Source: an uncultured Succinivibrio sp.
GTDB lineage: Bacteria > Pseudomonadota > Gammaproteobacteria > Enterobacterales > Succinivibrionaceae
DNA length: 64,000 nt
Assembly: GCA_934218695.1 (NCBI GenBank)
Contig: CAKQDA010000004.1
Span: 51,312 to 115,311 of the forward strand
Reading direction: 5' to 3'
Shown here: positions 26,835 to 32,804 of the stretch, piece after piece
Layout: the number at the start of each line of letters is the position of its first letter
How positions within the stretch are numbered: the first letter of the stretch is position 1
Program-made: the position numbers and the translations under genes
The notes under the pieces: model-generated
What the model saw: the letters and a program-made list of their open reading frames with translations, nothing else
What the model was told of the DNA's origin: nothing
Databases searched by the model: none

Positions 26835-27776
26835 ATGGATAACATTTTAGACAGAATTGCTGCTGAAACAGATCTTACAAAGTCAGAGAGAAAAGTTGCT
26901 GCAACTATTCTTAAAAATCCAGCTCTCGTTGTAAACGAGAATATAGCTCAGTTAGCCAAAAGATCTGGAGTCTCAGAGCCTTCAATCTGCAGATTCTGCA
27001 GGCGCTTTGGGGCAGAGGGTTTTCCTGCCTTCAAACTCATTCTGAGTGCAACGGTTTCTTCGGAGAATTTAAAAAAGGTAGAGTCTGTAAAGCAAGGTGA
27101 TACGGTCGAAGATGTTATCTCAAAGGTAATAGGTGCAGCTAAAAATTCTGTATCAAGCACAGAACGTGCTGCAGATGAGGGTACTATTGCAAGGGCTATT
27201 GATGTAGTAAGTCAGTCCCGCCGTATTGTTGTCCTTTCACAGGGACTAACCTCTTTCATTGGTGTCGATTTTGTAAACAGAATGCTGAATTTAGGCTTCT
27301 TTTGCCAGTCTTATACAGACAGACAGTCAATGATGCTTGCTGTATCTTCATTACGGTCAGGAGATGTTGCTCTGGCAATTTCGGCAACAGGCAACAATAA
27401 GGATGTACTCGATGCAGTGCTTGAAGCAAAGTCCACAGGATGCTGTGTGTTGGCCATCTGTCCTGAACAGTCGCCTATCAGCGAAAGTGCCACTGTTCAC
27501 TTAAAATCAGCTGAAAGTGTAAGTCCTGAGGATGACAGTATCTTTGCTAACAGATTATCTTTAATGCTGTGTTCTCAGATCATAATCGGAGGCGTTGTTC
27601 TCAGAAGGGGAATAGCAATTTCTGATCTTAAGCCACAGTTAAGAGAAACAAGGCTTAAATCCTACGTTGGAATAGCAAGAGAAGCACCTGTAACAGCAGA
27701 ATCTGAAGATGAAAAAGACGACGGGTCATTAAAACCTGGAGCACCAATAACTACATTGGACTGGCACCCATACTGA
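26835..27776 (+). CDS. RpiR-family (HexR-like) transcriptional regulator
   Basis: A DNA-binding regulator with an N-terminal RpiR helix-turn-helix (about 1-77, TKSERKVAATIL and SVSEPSICRFCRRFG-like) and a C-terminal SIS sugar-phosphate-binding domain (about 125-255). It resembles HexR. The gene starts one base after the nagA stop, so it is probably co-transcribed and may sense an amino-sugar phosphate. The exact orthology to HexR is uncertain. It is the last ordinary gene before the mobile island. Confidence 0.85.
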   Translation: MDNILDRIAAETDLTKSERKVAATILKNPALVVNENIAQLAKRSGVSEPSICRFCRRFGAEGFPAFKLILSATVSSENLKKVESVKQGDTVEDVISKVIGAAKNSVSSTERAADEGTIARAIDVVSQSRRIVVLSQGLTSFIGVDFVNRMLNLGFFCQSYTDRQSMMLAVSSLRSGDVALAISATGNNKDVLDAVLEAKSTGCCVLAICPEQSPISESATVHLKSAESVSPEDDSIFANRLSLMLCSQIIIGGVVLRRGIAISDLKPQLRETRLKSYVGIAREAPVTAESEDEKDDGSLKPGAPITTLDWHPY

Positions 27777-27814
27777 GAATCAGATAGTTCTATCTCTGAC
27801 TGTATAACTTTTTA

Positions 27815-27822
27815 TAAAAAAT
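27815..27822. repeat. Left candidate target-site duplication
   Basis: TAAAAAAT next to the left inverted end. The copy at 31045-31052 is TAAAAATT, 7 of 8 identical. Eight bases is the length made by IS1595-family elements, but AT-rich matches of this kind can arise by chance. Confidence 0.45.
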
Positions 27823-27851
27823 CGCTCTGTTGTCCAACAAAGTTGATCTAA
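27823..27851 (+). repeat. Left terminal inverted repeat
   Basis: Starts CGCTCTGTTGT and matches the reverse complement of 31016-31044 at 24 of 29 positions. Confidence 0.75.
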
Positions 27852-27986
27852 ATCTTTAACTCATTGAAAAACCATCAAAAGCTTTCTAATTCATCAATAT
27901 TTATACATAAACAGAAAATTAGATTACTTCTTCAATCGGCATATTTTGAAAAGTAATAATACAAACATCTTCACAATTCAAAAGTA

Positions 27987-28021
27987 ATGTGACTTATAAT
28001 CCGTGGATATATAGTCAACAT
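27987..28021 (+). promoter_or_regulatory. C-box operator of the restriction-modification system
   Basis: The site begins ATGTGACTTATAATCCGTG and ends TATAGTCAACAT. It has two half-operators around GTG, as in C-boxes bound by controller proteins of the C.Esp1396I/C.AhdI type, which it matches closely from memory. It ends 35 bases before the controller ATG. By analogy, one dimer activates and a second represses controller-endonuclease transcription. Confidence 0.75.
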
Positions 28022-28056
28022 AAATTCAGTATTAACTTGATTTATGGAGTATTTAT

Positions 28057-28302
28057 ATGTCCATCAAAATTCAAGTTGGTCAACGAATTAGACAATTACG
28101 CATTTCAAAAGGAATATCTCAAGAAAAACTAGCTTTAGAAGTTGGTTTAGATCGCACATACATAACATCTGTTGAAAATGGAAAACGTAATATCTCAGTT
28201 GTCAATTTAGAGAAAATTTGGACTTTCTTTGAACTTACTCCATCTCAATTTTTTGATTCGGAGTTATTTAAAGAAAATGGAGAAAAAAGAGTCACCTTAT
28301 GA
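28057..28302 (+). CDS. Restriction-modification controller protein (XRE HTH)
   Basis: An 81-residue protein made of one XRE-type helix-turn-helix domain: GQRIRQLRISKGISQEKLA, then LDRTYITSVENGKRNISVVNLEKI. Size and sequence match C proteins that time endonuclease expression so that methylation comes first. GGAG precedes the ATG. Its 3' end overlaps the endonuclease start, as in other C-R operons, and the C-box lies just upstream. Confidence 0.88.
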   Translation: MSIKIQVGQRIRQLRISKGISQEKLALEVGLDRTYITSVENGKRNISVVNLEKIWTFFELTPSQFFDSELFKENGEKRVTL

Positions 28303-29032
28303 TGGAGTAGATTTACATGAATACTCTGCAATAACAAATAAACTTATAGATTCTCATCCTCTAAGGTCTGATGAGATTGTAGAGTTGTGTGAGCAAGCGT
28401 GGTCTCTAGTATGGTCAACAAAAATAGGTACTAATCATATTTGTCTGTCATTAAGAGATATTAACCCCCCAGCAACTATCATAGGATATTTCTTTGAGAA
28501 GATATTTTGTAAATTATTAAATAGCAAATACCCTAATACTTGGAGAAATGGGAAACAACTTGACGAAAAAGATGTTGTTAATATTAAATTCCAAGAATAC
28601 TCTTTTGAAATTAAGACATCAGGTCAGTTTTCCACAAAAATATATGGAAATCGATCATATGGAAAAAAAATTGAAGGGAACAATAAAAAAGATAAGTCAG
28701 GGTACTATTTAACGATTAATTTTTTTAAAGATAAATTAGAACTAATAAGATTTGGATGGATAGATCATTCAGACTGGGCTTCTCAAAAAAGTGAATCAGG
28801 TCAGCAATCACATTTGAATCAAACTGTTTACGATTATAAATTAAAGATATTAAAAGGAGATTATTTAAAACAAACTGACAATGAGTTGCTTTTTGGAAAG
28901 TCCAAAAAGATAAACCTAGAATTAAAGAAACTAGGTTTAACTTGTTTTGATATTGTTGAGTGTTGCAATTTTGATTTTAGCAACAGCTTGAAAAATAAAA
29001 TAAATTACATAAAAACGCTTATTCACAACTGA
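28277..29032 (+). CDS. Type II restriction endonuclease, probably ScaI-like
   Basis: The 251-residue product follows and overlaps the controller gene. A PD-(D/E)XK-type site is likely, with Asp99 (EKDVVNI), then Glu111 and Lys113 in SFEIKTSG. NRSYGKK, KSGYYLTINF and RFGWIDHSDW resemble the ScaI endonuclease family as I recall it; ScaI cuts AGTACT. The start is uncertain: the open frame reaches back to 28229, but the ATG at 28277 gives the natural N-terminus. Its place beside a controller and a methyltransferase supports the endonuclease role even if the specificity is wrong. Confidence 0.75.
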   Translation: MEKKESPYDGVDLHEYSAITNKLIDSHPLRSDEIVELCEQAWSLVWSTKIGTNHICLSLRDINPPATIIGYFFEKIFCKLLNSKYPNTWRNGKQLDEKDVVNIKFQEYSFEIKTSGQFSTKIYGNRSYGKKIEGNNKKDKSGYYLTINFFKDKLELIRFGWIDHSDWASQKSESGQQSHLNQTVYDYKLKILKGDYLKQTDNELLFGKSKKINLELKKLGLTCFDIVECCNFDFSNSLKNKINYIKTLIHN

Positions 29033-29061
29033 TTTTTTTTAATTCATCGAATTGTGAATAA
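29019..29061. terminator. Convergent hairpin between endonuclease and methyltransferase
   Basis: TTATTCACAA at 29019-29028 and TTGTGAATAA at 29052-29061 are perfect inverted copies around a 23-base T-rich loop, placed where the two convergent transcripts meet. Confidence 0.6.
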
Positions 29062-29073
29062 TCTCAATTGCTA

Positions 29074-29904
29074 TCATTCAGAGATAACGTTGTCGTATGT
29101 TTTTACTCTGTCATATGACATTTCACAATATTCTTGTTTTATTTCAAATCCTATTGCATATCGATTATTTTTTAAGGCACATTCCATAGACGAACCAGAG
29201 CCTAAAAAAGGATCTAAAACAATTTCATTTATGTTTGAAAATCCTTTTATTACTCTTTCACATAAATCTAACGGAAACTGAGCCGGATGGTTGCATCTTT
29301 CCTTTGAAGCTCTATTAGTTCCTGATGTAACTTTAGCAATTTGCCAAACATCAGAAGGATTTTTACCTATTGTATTATTTCTCAATTTTCCTTTTTTCTT
29401 TTGATTTGGGTACAAGACATTAGGATCTCTGATATCATCTAAATTAAATGTATAGTTTTTGCTTGATTTTACGTACCACAAAACCTTTTCATTTCTAGGA
29501 GACAAATAGTTTTTACATGCAACTCCCGCACCGTAATTCCAAACTATTTCCTGTTGAAGGTAGAAAGGAATTTTATCCCATATCAAATATGGTATAGGTA
29601 TCGCTCTAGCTTTATTATCTAAACTTACATATCCTACGTTTAGCAAAAAAGCTCCATCTAAACTTATGGATTCATATGATGATTTTATCCATTGTTCAGT
29701 CCATTTTAGGTATTCTTGTATGGGCATTACTTTTTCGTAACTTTTTCCTATATTGTAAGGCGGAGATGTAAATAAAAGATTAATAGAGTTCTTAGGTATT
29801 CTTTTTAATAATTCAAGTGAATCTGAGTTAAAGATCGCAAAACGTTCTCCTTTAAATAAAGGAGAACCAATTTTTTTTATTATATTTTCAAACTGTTCAT
29901 TCAT
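29074..29904 (-). CDS. Type II DNA methyltransferase (N4-cytosine type, beta class)
   Basis: A 276-residue SAM-dependent methyltransferase. The catalytic motif IV TSPPYN is at 46-51 and the SAM-binding motif I DPFLGSG at 231-237, the beta-class order. Ser-Pro-Pro-Tyr rather than Asp/Asn-Pro-Pro-Tyr points to N4-cytosine modification. It faces the endonuclease gene tail to tail, and starts 15 bases after the end of the transposase remnant, in the same direction. It should protect the host from the neighbouring enzyme. Confidence 0.9.
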   Translation of the reverse strand: MNEQFENIIKKIGSPLFKGERFAIFNSDSLELLKRIPKNSINLLFTSPPYNIGKSYEKVMPIQEYLKWTEQWIKSSYESISLDGAFLLNVGYVSLDNKARAIPIPYLIWDKIPFYLQQEIVWNYGAGVACKNYLSPRNEKVLWYVKSSKNYTFNLDDIRDPNVLYPNQKKKGKLRNNTIGKNPSDVWQIAKVTSGTNRASKERCNHPAQFPLDLCERVIKGFSNINEIVLDPFLGSGSSMECALKNNRYAIGFEIKQEYCEMSYDRVKTYDNVISE

Positions 29905-29919
29905 TTTTATTTTTTCTTT

Positions 29920-30974
29920 TTAAACAGGAATAGCAGATCTAAATTTTATCATAGATCCTCTAGTCAAACATTTCGTGCTAAACACGAAATCCTCTAATAT
30001 ATTTAGCTTATTTATATCAGAATCTTTGTAAAAGTTAACAAAGTTATTGTACACAATATAATTGTTAAGATATTTAGTAGCAACACCTTTGAAATAATGA
30101 TAGGTAAGTCTTTTCAGTTCTGAATGATAACTGTTTACAGTCTGAATATTAAAAGCACCTGACTTATGTTTTCCTCTAGGGATTCTTACATGAGTTCACT
30201 CATTCTTAAATGCTATCTTTTGATAGCCTTTTAGAGAATCAGTTACAAAGACTGATCCTTGCTCAATTCTACCATCAGTAACTTTTTCTAAATCTTGAAC
30301 TTTAGGTTTTCCTAAATTAGATATTTTACCATTGACATTCCATCATGATTTACCATAGATGGTACACATACCTGTTCACAGGAAAAAACTCGTATAGAGT
30401 TGGAATGTCCTCTATGTCTACTCTCACGAGGGATCTCAAAATTTGACCTTTTAGAACCTTTAAAACTTATAGGATAGAAAGTTTCATCACTCTCTACTAT
30501 ACTCTTTAGGGTAACATCTGACTGCATATTTTGAAGAGCATCTAAGATTTTATGTCTCCAATTAAATGCAGTATGCAGATTTATATTACATATCTCAGCG
30601 CATTTTCTTAGAGAAAACTTATTGATCATACATTCACAGAACAGTTTCCAAGTTTCCAAATCTTTTTTTGTTGAAAACAGTATGGTATTGGTTGAAATAC
30701 TGAAGATTTTTCCACAATCCTTACACTTAAACTTTTGAACATTGCCATTTCTGCCATATTTAACTACGTTATGACTTTGGCAATGAGGGCAATCTGGACT
30801 ATCAGGTAATGGATTTTTAGAATGTTTTAGAACTATTTCATTCTGATTATCTGATGATTTAATCTTTTGATTAGGTTTATCAGCTTTGAGGTATTTGAGG
30901 AACTCAGATTTTTCATGGTCTGATAAGTTTTCAAACATCTGAGTAATGATTGATATTTGATCCATAATAATCAA
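29920..30974 (-). pseudogene. IS1595-like transposase, frameshifted and with a stop
   Basis: The first 220 codons (from 30974) hold a zinc ribbon (CPHC, CKDCG), the SLRKCAEICNINLHTAFNWR helix-turn-helix and the first catalytic Asp in ESDET. The frame is lost near 30,341. In the next frame the protein continues with VTDSLKGYQ (second Asp) and VNSYHSELKR, then FKGVATKYLNNYI, and ends at 29920. A TGA at 30196-30198 breaks this part too. Two lesions mean it is inactive. It belongs to the transposon that carries the restriction system. Confidence 0.8.
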
Positions 30975-31015
30975 CCTCTCTATCTTTCTATAAATATTAT
31001 AATCTGTTAGAAAGG

Positions 31016-31044
31016 TTATATCAACTATTTTCTACAACAGAGCG
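31016..31044 (-). repeat. Right terminal inverted repeat
   Basis: Reverse-complement partner of 27823-27851, ending in ACAACAGAGCG on the plus strand. Confidence 0.75.
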
Positions 31045-31052
31045 TAAAAATT
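31045..31052. repeat. Right candidate target-site duplication
   Basis: TAAAAATT, 7 of 8 bases equal to the left flank at 27815-27822. Confidence 0.45.
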
Positions 31053-32804
31053 AAACTATAAAAAATTAAATTTAAGCTTATACAGAATACCGCTAGTTTT
31101 AATACATTTTTTTATGAAAGCCTGAAAGTAGCTCAGATCCAATAAGACAAATAAAGATCCGACCTTCCTTAGAAAGTCTAAAAAAGCACTAAGACTCAAG
31201 CAGTTATAAAATAGCTATGTTTGCAACGAAGCAGATCTTTTTCGCTTATTAGTACCAAAGATCTTCGTAACATAGCCATTAGAACTGTCCTGAATTTCAA
31301 TATCATCACAGATGTAGCCAACGTCTCTAAGACCAGCAACAGCTTGTACAGCTTTGCAGAACCTATGTTCTTTCAAGACGGGCCTGTACTGTTCCTGATA
31401 TGCAGTTCCATGAGTCAGAATGCTAAAAATGATGCGACACATTTTATGGGCTAGTGCAACATTCGCCTTCTTTGTGCCACGTCTTTCTTTGAACCTCTGG
31501 TGAACCTCATGAAGGAAACCTTTCTTCATAAGAGCGATGCCTGAAGCATCTTCAACCAGAAGAACCTTAAGGTACTTATTGCCAGGAGTAGTTCTGCCAG
31601 AGTATTTTTTACCGGCAGACTCATTATTACCAGGAGCAAGACCAATCCATTTACAAAAGCGTCTTATGGACGTGAATTGGGAAAGATCATCTCCAAGTTC
31701 ACAGGTAATCCCCATAGCAGTAATGTCTTTGATACCAGGAATTGAACAAAGCAACTTCATAGGATGAGTATAAGGTTTAAGCTTATCTCTCAGATTGGCT
31801 TCAGCCTCTGCTATCTGTGCATCAAGGAATTTAATGTGTTCCATATTTTGTCTGATTGCAAACCAGACGTCGCTCTCCATATCAGCCTGCAGGGCATCAA
31901 AGATTTGCTGAGGTTTAGCCTTGAGTTTACCTCGAGAACTGGAGATTATATCAACGATATGATCGTAAAGAATCTTCCCATGTTCACCACTGATTAGGCA
32001 TTCAATGATTTTAGTAGCTTTCTTACCGCGGATATCGCAGAATACACTTGAAGCTCTACAGCCAACCTGACACAACTGCTTGTGCATGATGTTAATGAAC
32101 TTCTTTCTGGACATCTTCAGTGTAAAGAAAGATCGCCATAAACATCGAAGCTGTCTTATTTCTTTTGCTGGGACAAATGAAGCCCTATAGGTTCCCTGTC
32201 TTGCATCCTCAGCCAAATGAATGGCATCAGCCAAATCTGTTTTACTACCTCTCTTGTTTTTAACGTCACGGGCATTTACAACTACAAGCTCTTTATTGGT
32301 AAAACCAACGTTTTCCAATGATTCATATAAGGATTGCCAGTAAACACCTGTTGATTCCATGATAAGAACCTCAGCACCTTTTTCCTTACACCAGACTGCA
32401 AAAGCCTCAAGTTCAGGTTTTGATGCTCCAGACGACTAGGTCTCAGTAACTAAATTGTTACTACCGTACTCACAGTTCTGATAAACTGTAACAATCAGAT
32501 TGGAATGCACGTCTATTCCTATGGCACTTTTGTGGAGTGCGTGAAATGTTGCAAGGTTTTCACGCTTCTTATGTGCTACACTCATAGAGCCTCCTATATT
32601 TAGGAAGGTTGATGACAATTGATGATCTTTCTCTGAATGGGTCCATAAGGAAACGTGAATTACATATTTGCCAAAAACAAATCTGTATTCTGTTTTTTTA
32701 TGCGAAATCGTTGATAGGTTTACAACGTCATCATGCTGTTGTACAGCGATAGCACCCGCCATAATTTTTTTACGGAGACGGAAGCTCTCAAAAAAAAACC
32801 ACAT
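31053..32804 (-). mobile_element. IS110-family insertion sequence (ends not defined)
   Basis: A transposase of the IS110 type fills 31215-32585 on the minus strand. IS110 elements have no inverted ends, so I cannot fix the borders; the given ones are approximate. About 200 bases of non-coding sequence precede the transposase (32586-32790), where IS110-group elements encode their bridge RNA. A short hairpin, ACAAC and GTTGT at 32722-32742, lies there. Confidence 0.6.
31215..32585 (-). pseudogene. IS110-family transposase with one amber stop
   Basis: Starting at the ATG at 32585 (AGGAGG upstream), the protein has the RuvC-like N-terminal domain (SAIGIDVHSN, then IMESTGVYWQSLYE and GSKTDLADAIHLAE) and the C-terminal Transposase_20 domain (LLCSIPGIKDITAM, then FCKWIGLAPGNNESAG with the catalytic serine region). 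One TAG at 32436-32438 interrupts the same frame after about 50 codons. All else is intact, so the change is recent, or the stop is suppressed. Confidence 0.85.

Follow-up and report, generated by a model that had tools for sequence, protein, structure and literature searches.

The stretch analysed here, a 64-kb window of a contig from an uncultured Succinivibrio sp. (CAKQDA010000004.1, positions 51,312 to 115,311), contains a compact unit in which a transposase gene of the IS1595 family of insertion sequences (IS) stands beside the genes of a type II restriction-modification (R-M) system (Table 1). From left to right, an inverted repeat and a candidate operator are followed by the controller (C) and restriction endonuclease (R) genes on the forward strand, then by the DNA methyltransferase (M) and transposase genes on the reverse strand and a second inverted repeat. 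The C and R reading frames overlap by 26 bp and, since C, R and M are all open, the gene set of a C-protein type II R-M system is complete. An earlier note on this DNA had placed these three genes between the ends, and matches to PF01381, PF09569 and PF01555 confirm their identity. The candidate operator fits the C.PvuII-like pattern, an architecture of two GACT-tat-AGTC-like repeats with a GT centre (PMC4824078), with one and two core mismatches. The R protein is 98% identical to one encoded on another contig (P0121); no relative turned up among viral contigs when the ScaI-family endonuclease served as query, and only two plasmid records hold such an endonuclease, each 40% identical. ScaI itself recognizes AGTACT, and the window enzyme may recognize a similar sequence. 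The window contains this hexamer 12 times (14.6 expected), with no occurrence inside the element; these counts are uninformative on site avoidance.

Table 1. Features of the R-M element, its surroundings and two loci used for comparison (window coordinates unless another locus is named)
Feature	Position	Strand	Remarks
IS1595-family transposon	27823-31044		3,222 bp; 30% G+C vs 39% for the 64-kb window
Left flanking octamer TAAAAAAT	27815..27822		presumed target duplication; 7/8 to right octamer
Left, cargo-distal terminal inverted repeat	27823..27851	+	pairs with right end at 24/29
Cargo-distal end common to window and L001	27823..27960	+	138 bp, 88% identical
Candidate controller operator	27991..28016	+	GACT-TAT-AATC CGTG GATA-TAT-AGTC; architecture as in PMC4824078
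Controller (C) gene	28057..28302	+	81 aa; PF01381 HTH_3, 1.2e-13; nearest solved relatives C.AhdI, C.BclI
Restriction endonuclease (R) gene, ScaI family	28277..29032	+	251 aa; PF09569 RE_ScaI, 1.5e-61, 207.9 bits vs cutoff 25
DNA methyltransferase (M) gene, N6_N4_Mtase	29074..29904	-	276 aa; PF01555, 5.1e-50; nearest solved relative M.RsrI
IS1595-family transposase pseudogene	29920..30965	-	frameshift near 30330; in-frame TGA at 30196-30198
Right, transposase-side terminal inverted repeat	31016..31044	-	pairs with left end at 24/29
Right flanking octamer TAAAAATT	31045..31052		7/8 to left octamer
IS110-family transposase gene	31215-32360	-	adjoins right end of R-M element
Further open frame	32436-32804	-	possibly part of IS110 element
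Sister element L001	L001, 9922-15063		5,142 bp; same ends, 8/8 duplication AATCTCTT, intact transposase
Accessory open frame after rpiR in G046	L117, 4447-5913		at least 489 aa; contig ends there

The transposase near the right end belongs to the IS1595 family, as the earlier note had proposed, but is no longer intact. The fragment passes NF033547 (80.4 bits, cutoff 75), while its N-terminal zinc ribbon scores 22.5 bits with PF12760 (cutoff 25.4) and 45.1 with NF050000 (cutoff 28). Compared with its 348-aa relative P0001, it matches at 93% over residues 1 to 214 and, in another frame, at 85% over residues 213 to 347, the part in which the in-frame TGA falls. Given this frameshift and stop, we regard the gene as a pseudogene, and the element lacks the intact transposase of an autonomous transposon. 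A programmed frameshift was set aside, as the close relatives P0001 and L001 (below) have single-frame genes and the window copy has the additional stop.

The top-ranked of the relatives retained from a transposase scan, locus L001 on a contig of an uncultured Succinivibrionaceae metagenome-assembled genome (MAG), is a sister element. Its transposase is a single frame of 351 aa (PF12762, 42.4 against a cutoff of 27), and its ends have no mismatch to the 11-mer CGCTCTGTTGT, with which both window ends begin and which, at one mismatch or fewer, occurs at just two places in the 64 kb, namely those ends. Similarity between the two elements is confined to 1,088 bp on the transposase side (84.6% identity) and 138 bp of the far end (88.5%); in the interval, where nothing aligns, L001 carries type III mod (methyltransferase) and res (restriction subunit) genes unrelated to the window C-R-M set. 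The window and L001 are thereby shown to have a common chassis with different R-M cargo. The pairing of the window ends at 24 of 29 bases from a common start, reported in the earlier note, held on recomputation, as did the 7-of-8 identity of the flanks. The terminal repeats of an IS1595 element are thus present and backed by L001, in which the 8-bp target duplication is perfect. The same comparison, through the conserved far end, the other genes between the same ends and that perfect duplication, bears out the proposal that R-M genes are cargo of an IS1595 element, and it supplies the same ends with other cargo for which a search had been suggested. A composite transposon was ruled out, there being one transposase gene and one end pair rather than two IS copies around the cargo.

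R-M genes recur among relatives of this element. A scan with the transposase alignment, at one genome per species, returned at least 591 stretches, at least 546 of them relatives. The top 80 were retained, relatives were delimited by inverted repeats and 8-bp flanks, and their cargo was then scanned with Pfam and PADLOC. R-M genes lay beside or inside the element at 28 loci, or 29 including the window. Both ends, with flanks identical at 7/8 or 8/8, were found in 23 of these 29 rows, 20 of them at 8/8, a set that includes near-T-run duplications in L016, L135 and L147 (T8 in L016 and L147). When the near end was searched for its best inverted partner at 16 loci, the match covered 18 to 24 of 24 bases, with flanks at 7 to 8 of 8, compared with 14 to 16 of 24 and 1 to 5 of 8 in a direct-orientation control. 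The 29 rows comprise 10 with separate R and M (in some of which R or the far end is unconfirmed), 10 with an IIG-like single chain, three IIG-like with S, four with M and S, and two of type III. These labels are our own: PADLOC calls several of the M-plus-S and IIG rows type I methyltransferase, and type I without R is indistinguishable from IIG here. PADLOC returned no match for two putative endonucleases (L122, 188 aa; L125, 207 aa). In 24 distinct elements, the space between the ends fits little besides the transposase and R-M genes. The 78 loci not labelled R-M (21 tree rows) were rechecked against a small custom library built from the R-M proteins of this analysis, which can miss R-M genes, and a similar open frame lay within 4.5 kb in four: L031 (outside its 1.7-kb element), L075, L078 and L148. 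Within that same limit, the library matched none of the 14 rows labelled "other," a group of which the Pfam cargo scan covered only six.

A quick tree of 50 transposase rows comprised the window and 32 of 89, 1 of 4 and 16 of 27 loci from three locus sets. Near copies (about 36 loci resembling ISSag10, further copies of ISCaje5 and all but one of the five in genome G284) were excluded, as were unclear loci and fragments at contig ends. In one clade of 23 rows, with SH-aLRT support of 100%, 22 are R-M rows, 16 of them delimited with both ends and duplication. The five-row group containing the window (90% support) holds four R-M rows and L002, a short cargo-free element, and three R-M rows (L010, L016 and L079) fall among the other 22. 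The label R-M versus other requires six changes on the tree, compared with a shuffled mean of 16.2, and none of 500 shuffles was that low. R-M type requires 16 changes on the 29 rows, and individual type labels scatter about as shuffled ones do (type II, 8 versus 9.3 changes, 68/500; type IIG, 9 versus 9.4, 250/500). Close transposases carry different R-M types. Altogether, we consider it very probable that the window unit represents an IS1595-family transposon with R-M cargo and a decayed transposase, and that it comes from a lineage in which nearly every sampled element has some R-M system, differing between close relatives.

The cargo could in principle descend from one ancestral R-M element whose genes diverged or lost domains without any exchange, and the strong clustering of the R-M label on the tree speaks for such descent. 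However, types II, III, IIG and M plus S are different protein architectures, and the 16 changes of type also argue against it, as does the DNA of closely related elements. Among 20 listed pairs with transposase-side DNA identity of at least 75% over 700 bp, one is a single ISCaje5-like element taken twice; cargo similarity is absent from 18 of the remaining 19 and limited to 29 bp in the last. Cargo similarity is nil even where the transposase sides are 83 to 91% identical, with DNA similarity in like pairs ending approximately at the end of the transposase gene. The elements L004 and L014, which lie in one Actinobacillus ureae genome, have 88% identical transposase sides and different R-M genes. 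We therefore regard unbroken descent as very improbable.

Exchange of cargo by recombination is suggested by transposase genes that look mosaic. The identity of the window and L001 genes is 0.90 to 1.00 over the first 540 bp, 0.62 to 0.68 at 600 to 840 and 0.85 to 0.88 at 900 to 1020, while P0001 and P0006 compare at 0.73 to 0.90 in the middle and 0.24 to 0.56 in the first 60 columns. Such patterns suggest recombination between related elements, possibly taking cargo along, and uneven protein constraint could account for part of them. Homologous recombination may have swapped cargo between elements that have transposase sequence and far end in common. We lean slightly toward a broader version of this idea, in which one IS1595 branch would be a dedicated R-M vehicle, its 1.1-kb transposase module and brief far end enclosing hardly anything except an R-M system, and co-resident elements would trade type II, IIG, M-plus-S and type III systems through recombination within the transposase gene and the far end.

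Relatives with R-M cargo have moved recently, although the window copy has decayed. This follows from the Campylobacteraceae genome G284, where an element of 3,071 bp whose cargo is REase_II and MTase_II stands in five copies (L130 to L134) at five sites, four identical and one with a 1-base difference, each with a different 8/8 duplication. It follows likewise from ISCaje5-like elements of 2,899 bp, identical at up to 2,898 of 2,899 bases, which occupy three sites, one on two Campylobacter coli plasmids (NZ_CP082875.1 and NZ_CP044176.1) and the others in two further genomes. Movement would presumably be driven by the IS1595-type transposase of the element. Alternatively, the R-M systems might have moved by their own means or with plasmids or phages, IS1595 being a mere frequent neighbour in defence-rich regions. 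R-M systems have been reported on transposons, adjoining IS copies and travelling with many kinds of mobile element (PMC3031569, PMC4176335), and the ISCaje5-like elements do sit on plasmids. Yet the R-M genes lie inside the ends, those 24 distinct elements hold little else beyond the transposase, and five whole copies stand at five sites in G284; we give this explanation slightly less credence even than unbroken descent. The plasmid copies also tell against the earlier suggestion that the element spreads a type II system without a plasmid or phage. That suggestion is unsupported, since transposition moves DNA within a cell and is, on its own, no replacement for either.

The transposases are sparse in the families sampled, with one to two matches in most positive genomes. 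Positive genomes numbered 4/56, 2/140, 11/153, 5/83 and 3/299 at 1e-40, and 6/121 at 1e-60. DNA resembling the transposase region was not found in E. coli genomes, phage records held 12 weaker transposase relatives, none above 60% identity, and the shared end pattern had no match among viral contigs. A contig classed as viral in IMG/VR (L081) carries an R-M element with an IIG-like chain and S, which may lie in a phage or in host flank. On the H. pylori plasmid pY95 (L121), an AlwI-family endonuclease gene adjoins an IS1595 transposase, and no end pair was found there. A 4,987-bp contig of a Clostridia MAG (L003) has an R-M element whose transposase side is 83% identical to one from Actinobacillus ureae; the contig may be wrongly binned or may reflect distant transfer. 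More distant IS1595 elements with 8/8 flanks carry other cargo (L059, L062, L063, L067, L085 and L013, the last with leucine-rich-repeat proteins).

Several observations weigh against reading the window unit as a transposon with R-M cargo from an R-M-carrying lineage. The window copy probably cannot move alone and is probably not autonomous, because its transposase is broken; the earlier description of a complete mobile unit does not hold for the present day. Six of the 29 R-M rows (L128, L143, L145, L146, L149 and L150) are not cleanly delimited, mostly owing to contig ends, nested copies or a missing far end. R-M genes in L008, L014, L137 and L141 look split or incomplete, and L070, on a long branch within the 23-row clade, has other cargo. 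For either half of the recombination idea, the evidence consists of sequence patterns. The empty site that the earlier note proposed to look for in a related strain was not found at base level in the nearest genome (G046) or in 20 family genomes. Furthermore, the window's own ends and flanks, taken alone, are within chance: a 24/29 inverted pair, somewhere and at any spacing, was present in 3 of 12 first-order random sequences modelled on positions 27001 to 32000, and of 671 8-mers from the vicinity, 5 agree with TAAAAAAT in at least 7 of 8 positions. Since random sequences reach 24/29 and the flanks agree at just 7/8, the window alone gives weak proof of the ends, which we accept as real because of the comparison with L001, with its shared far end and perfect 8-bp duplication. 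Those same figures would favour an IS1595 copy that landed beside a resident C-R-M system, its outer repeat a chance match, but this very improbable account is already close to refuted by the 138-bp far end conserved in L001 beyond unrelated genes and by 20 other R-M elements in the tree set with matching repeats and 8/8 flanks (three of them T runs or near).

The insertion site in the window is surrounded by nagA, rpiR and glgA, with rpiR and glgA 5.5 kb apart and the R-M element and an IS110 element in between. G046, from the family of L001's genome, has about 82% DNA identity (nagA 96% and rpiR 90% identical). Since it has a different accessory gene after rpiR, the gap there may be a recurrent insertion site. 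In 3 of the 20 family genomes (G047, G040 and G026), rpiR and glgA are direct neighbours, 36 to 91 bp apart by aligned ends; these genomes are more distant than G046, and their locus is empty in terms of gene order rather than to the exact base. A gene-order search returned no genomes beyond those already found.

The ISCaje5-like elements resemble the window element in their IS1595 transposase (to which P0001 is 51% identical), GGCTMTGT-type ends, 8/8 duplication and gene order, with tnp and M followed by a putative R on the other strand and a helix-turn-helix regulator (C). They differ in length and in their putative R, which has 188 aa, is dissimilar to the ScaI-family R and belongs to no PADLOC family; their M and C are 24% and 43% identical to those of the window. 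RefSeq naming of ISCaje5 covers the transposase only, and our literature search found nothing on ISCaje5 by name. IS1595 elements with passenger resistance genes have been described, and in tISCpe8 and MTnSag1, as in the window, an IS1595 transposase and a passenger gene lie between one end pair (PMC5704250). That type is represented here by L018, whose transposase is about 48% identical and whose cargo is not R-M but a nucleotidyltransferase matching an aminoglycoside-resistance domain. ISApl4 shares the family and the 8-bp direct repeats, but is passenger-free at 712 bp, with resistance genes only between two copies (PMC12561309). The PaeR7I R-M system moved in E. coli together with an insertion sequence, IS1 or IS5, but there a laboratory plasmid joined chromosomal IS copies, rather than R-M lying inside a single element (PMC3031569). 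In a search of freely readable papers, judged by titles and passages, no description of R-M as recurrent IS1595 cargo was found. Transposon-borne R-M systems and IS1595 elements with cargo are thus known already, while a lineage mostly carrying R-M was not found described. Furuta, Abe and Kobayashi (2010) reportedly surveyed putative mobile forms of R-M systems, including transposon-like contexts.

We propose that an IS1595 chassis, comprising a transposase gene on one side and a short conserved stretch on the other, brackets R-M cargo, here the ScaI-family C-R-M set. Insertion would have involved a cut at an AT-rich site and an 8-bp duplication, and decay of the transposase afterward would have let the element persist as a resident R-M system. 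The element would move again only with the help of an intact transposase, supplied by a related element and acting on the window ends, which may still be functional. The mechanism first read from the window is right in kind, and a lineage with mainly R-M cargo is the broader result. R-M systems are patchy among close strains and their entry into chromosomes is often unclear; a small element of this kind is a concrete, testable route. Its ends are readable and its R-M slot can be swapped, so that it shows exactly where each acquisition begins and stops, and reading between the ends is a way to find new R-M types. If the branch is indeed a dedicated R-M vehicle, its cargo could protect the element from loss, which would explain a copy number that is usually low, together with long persistence.

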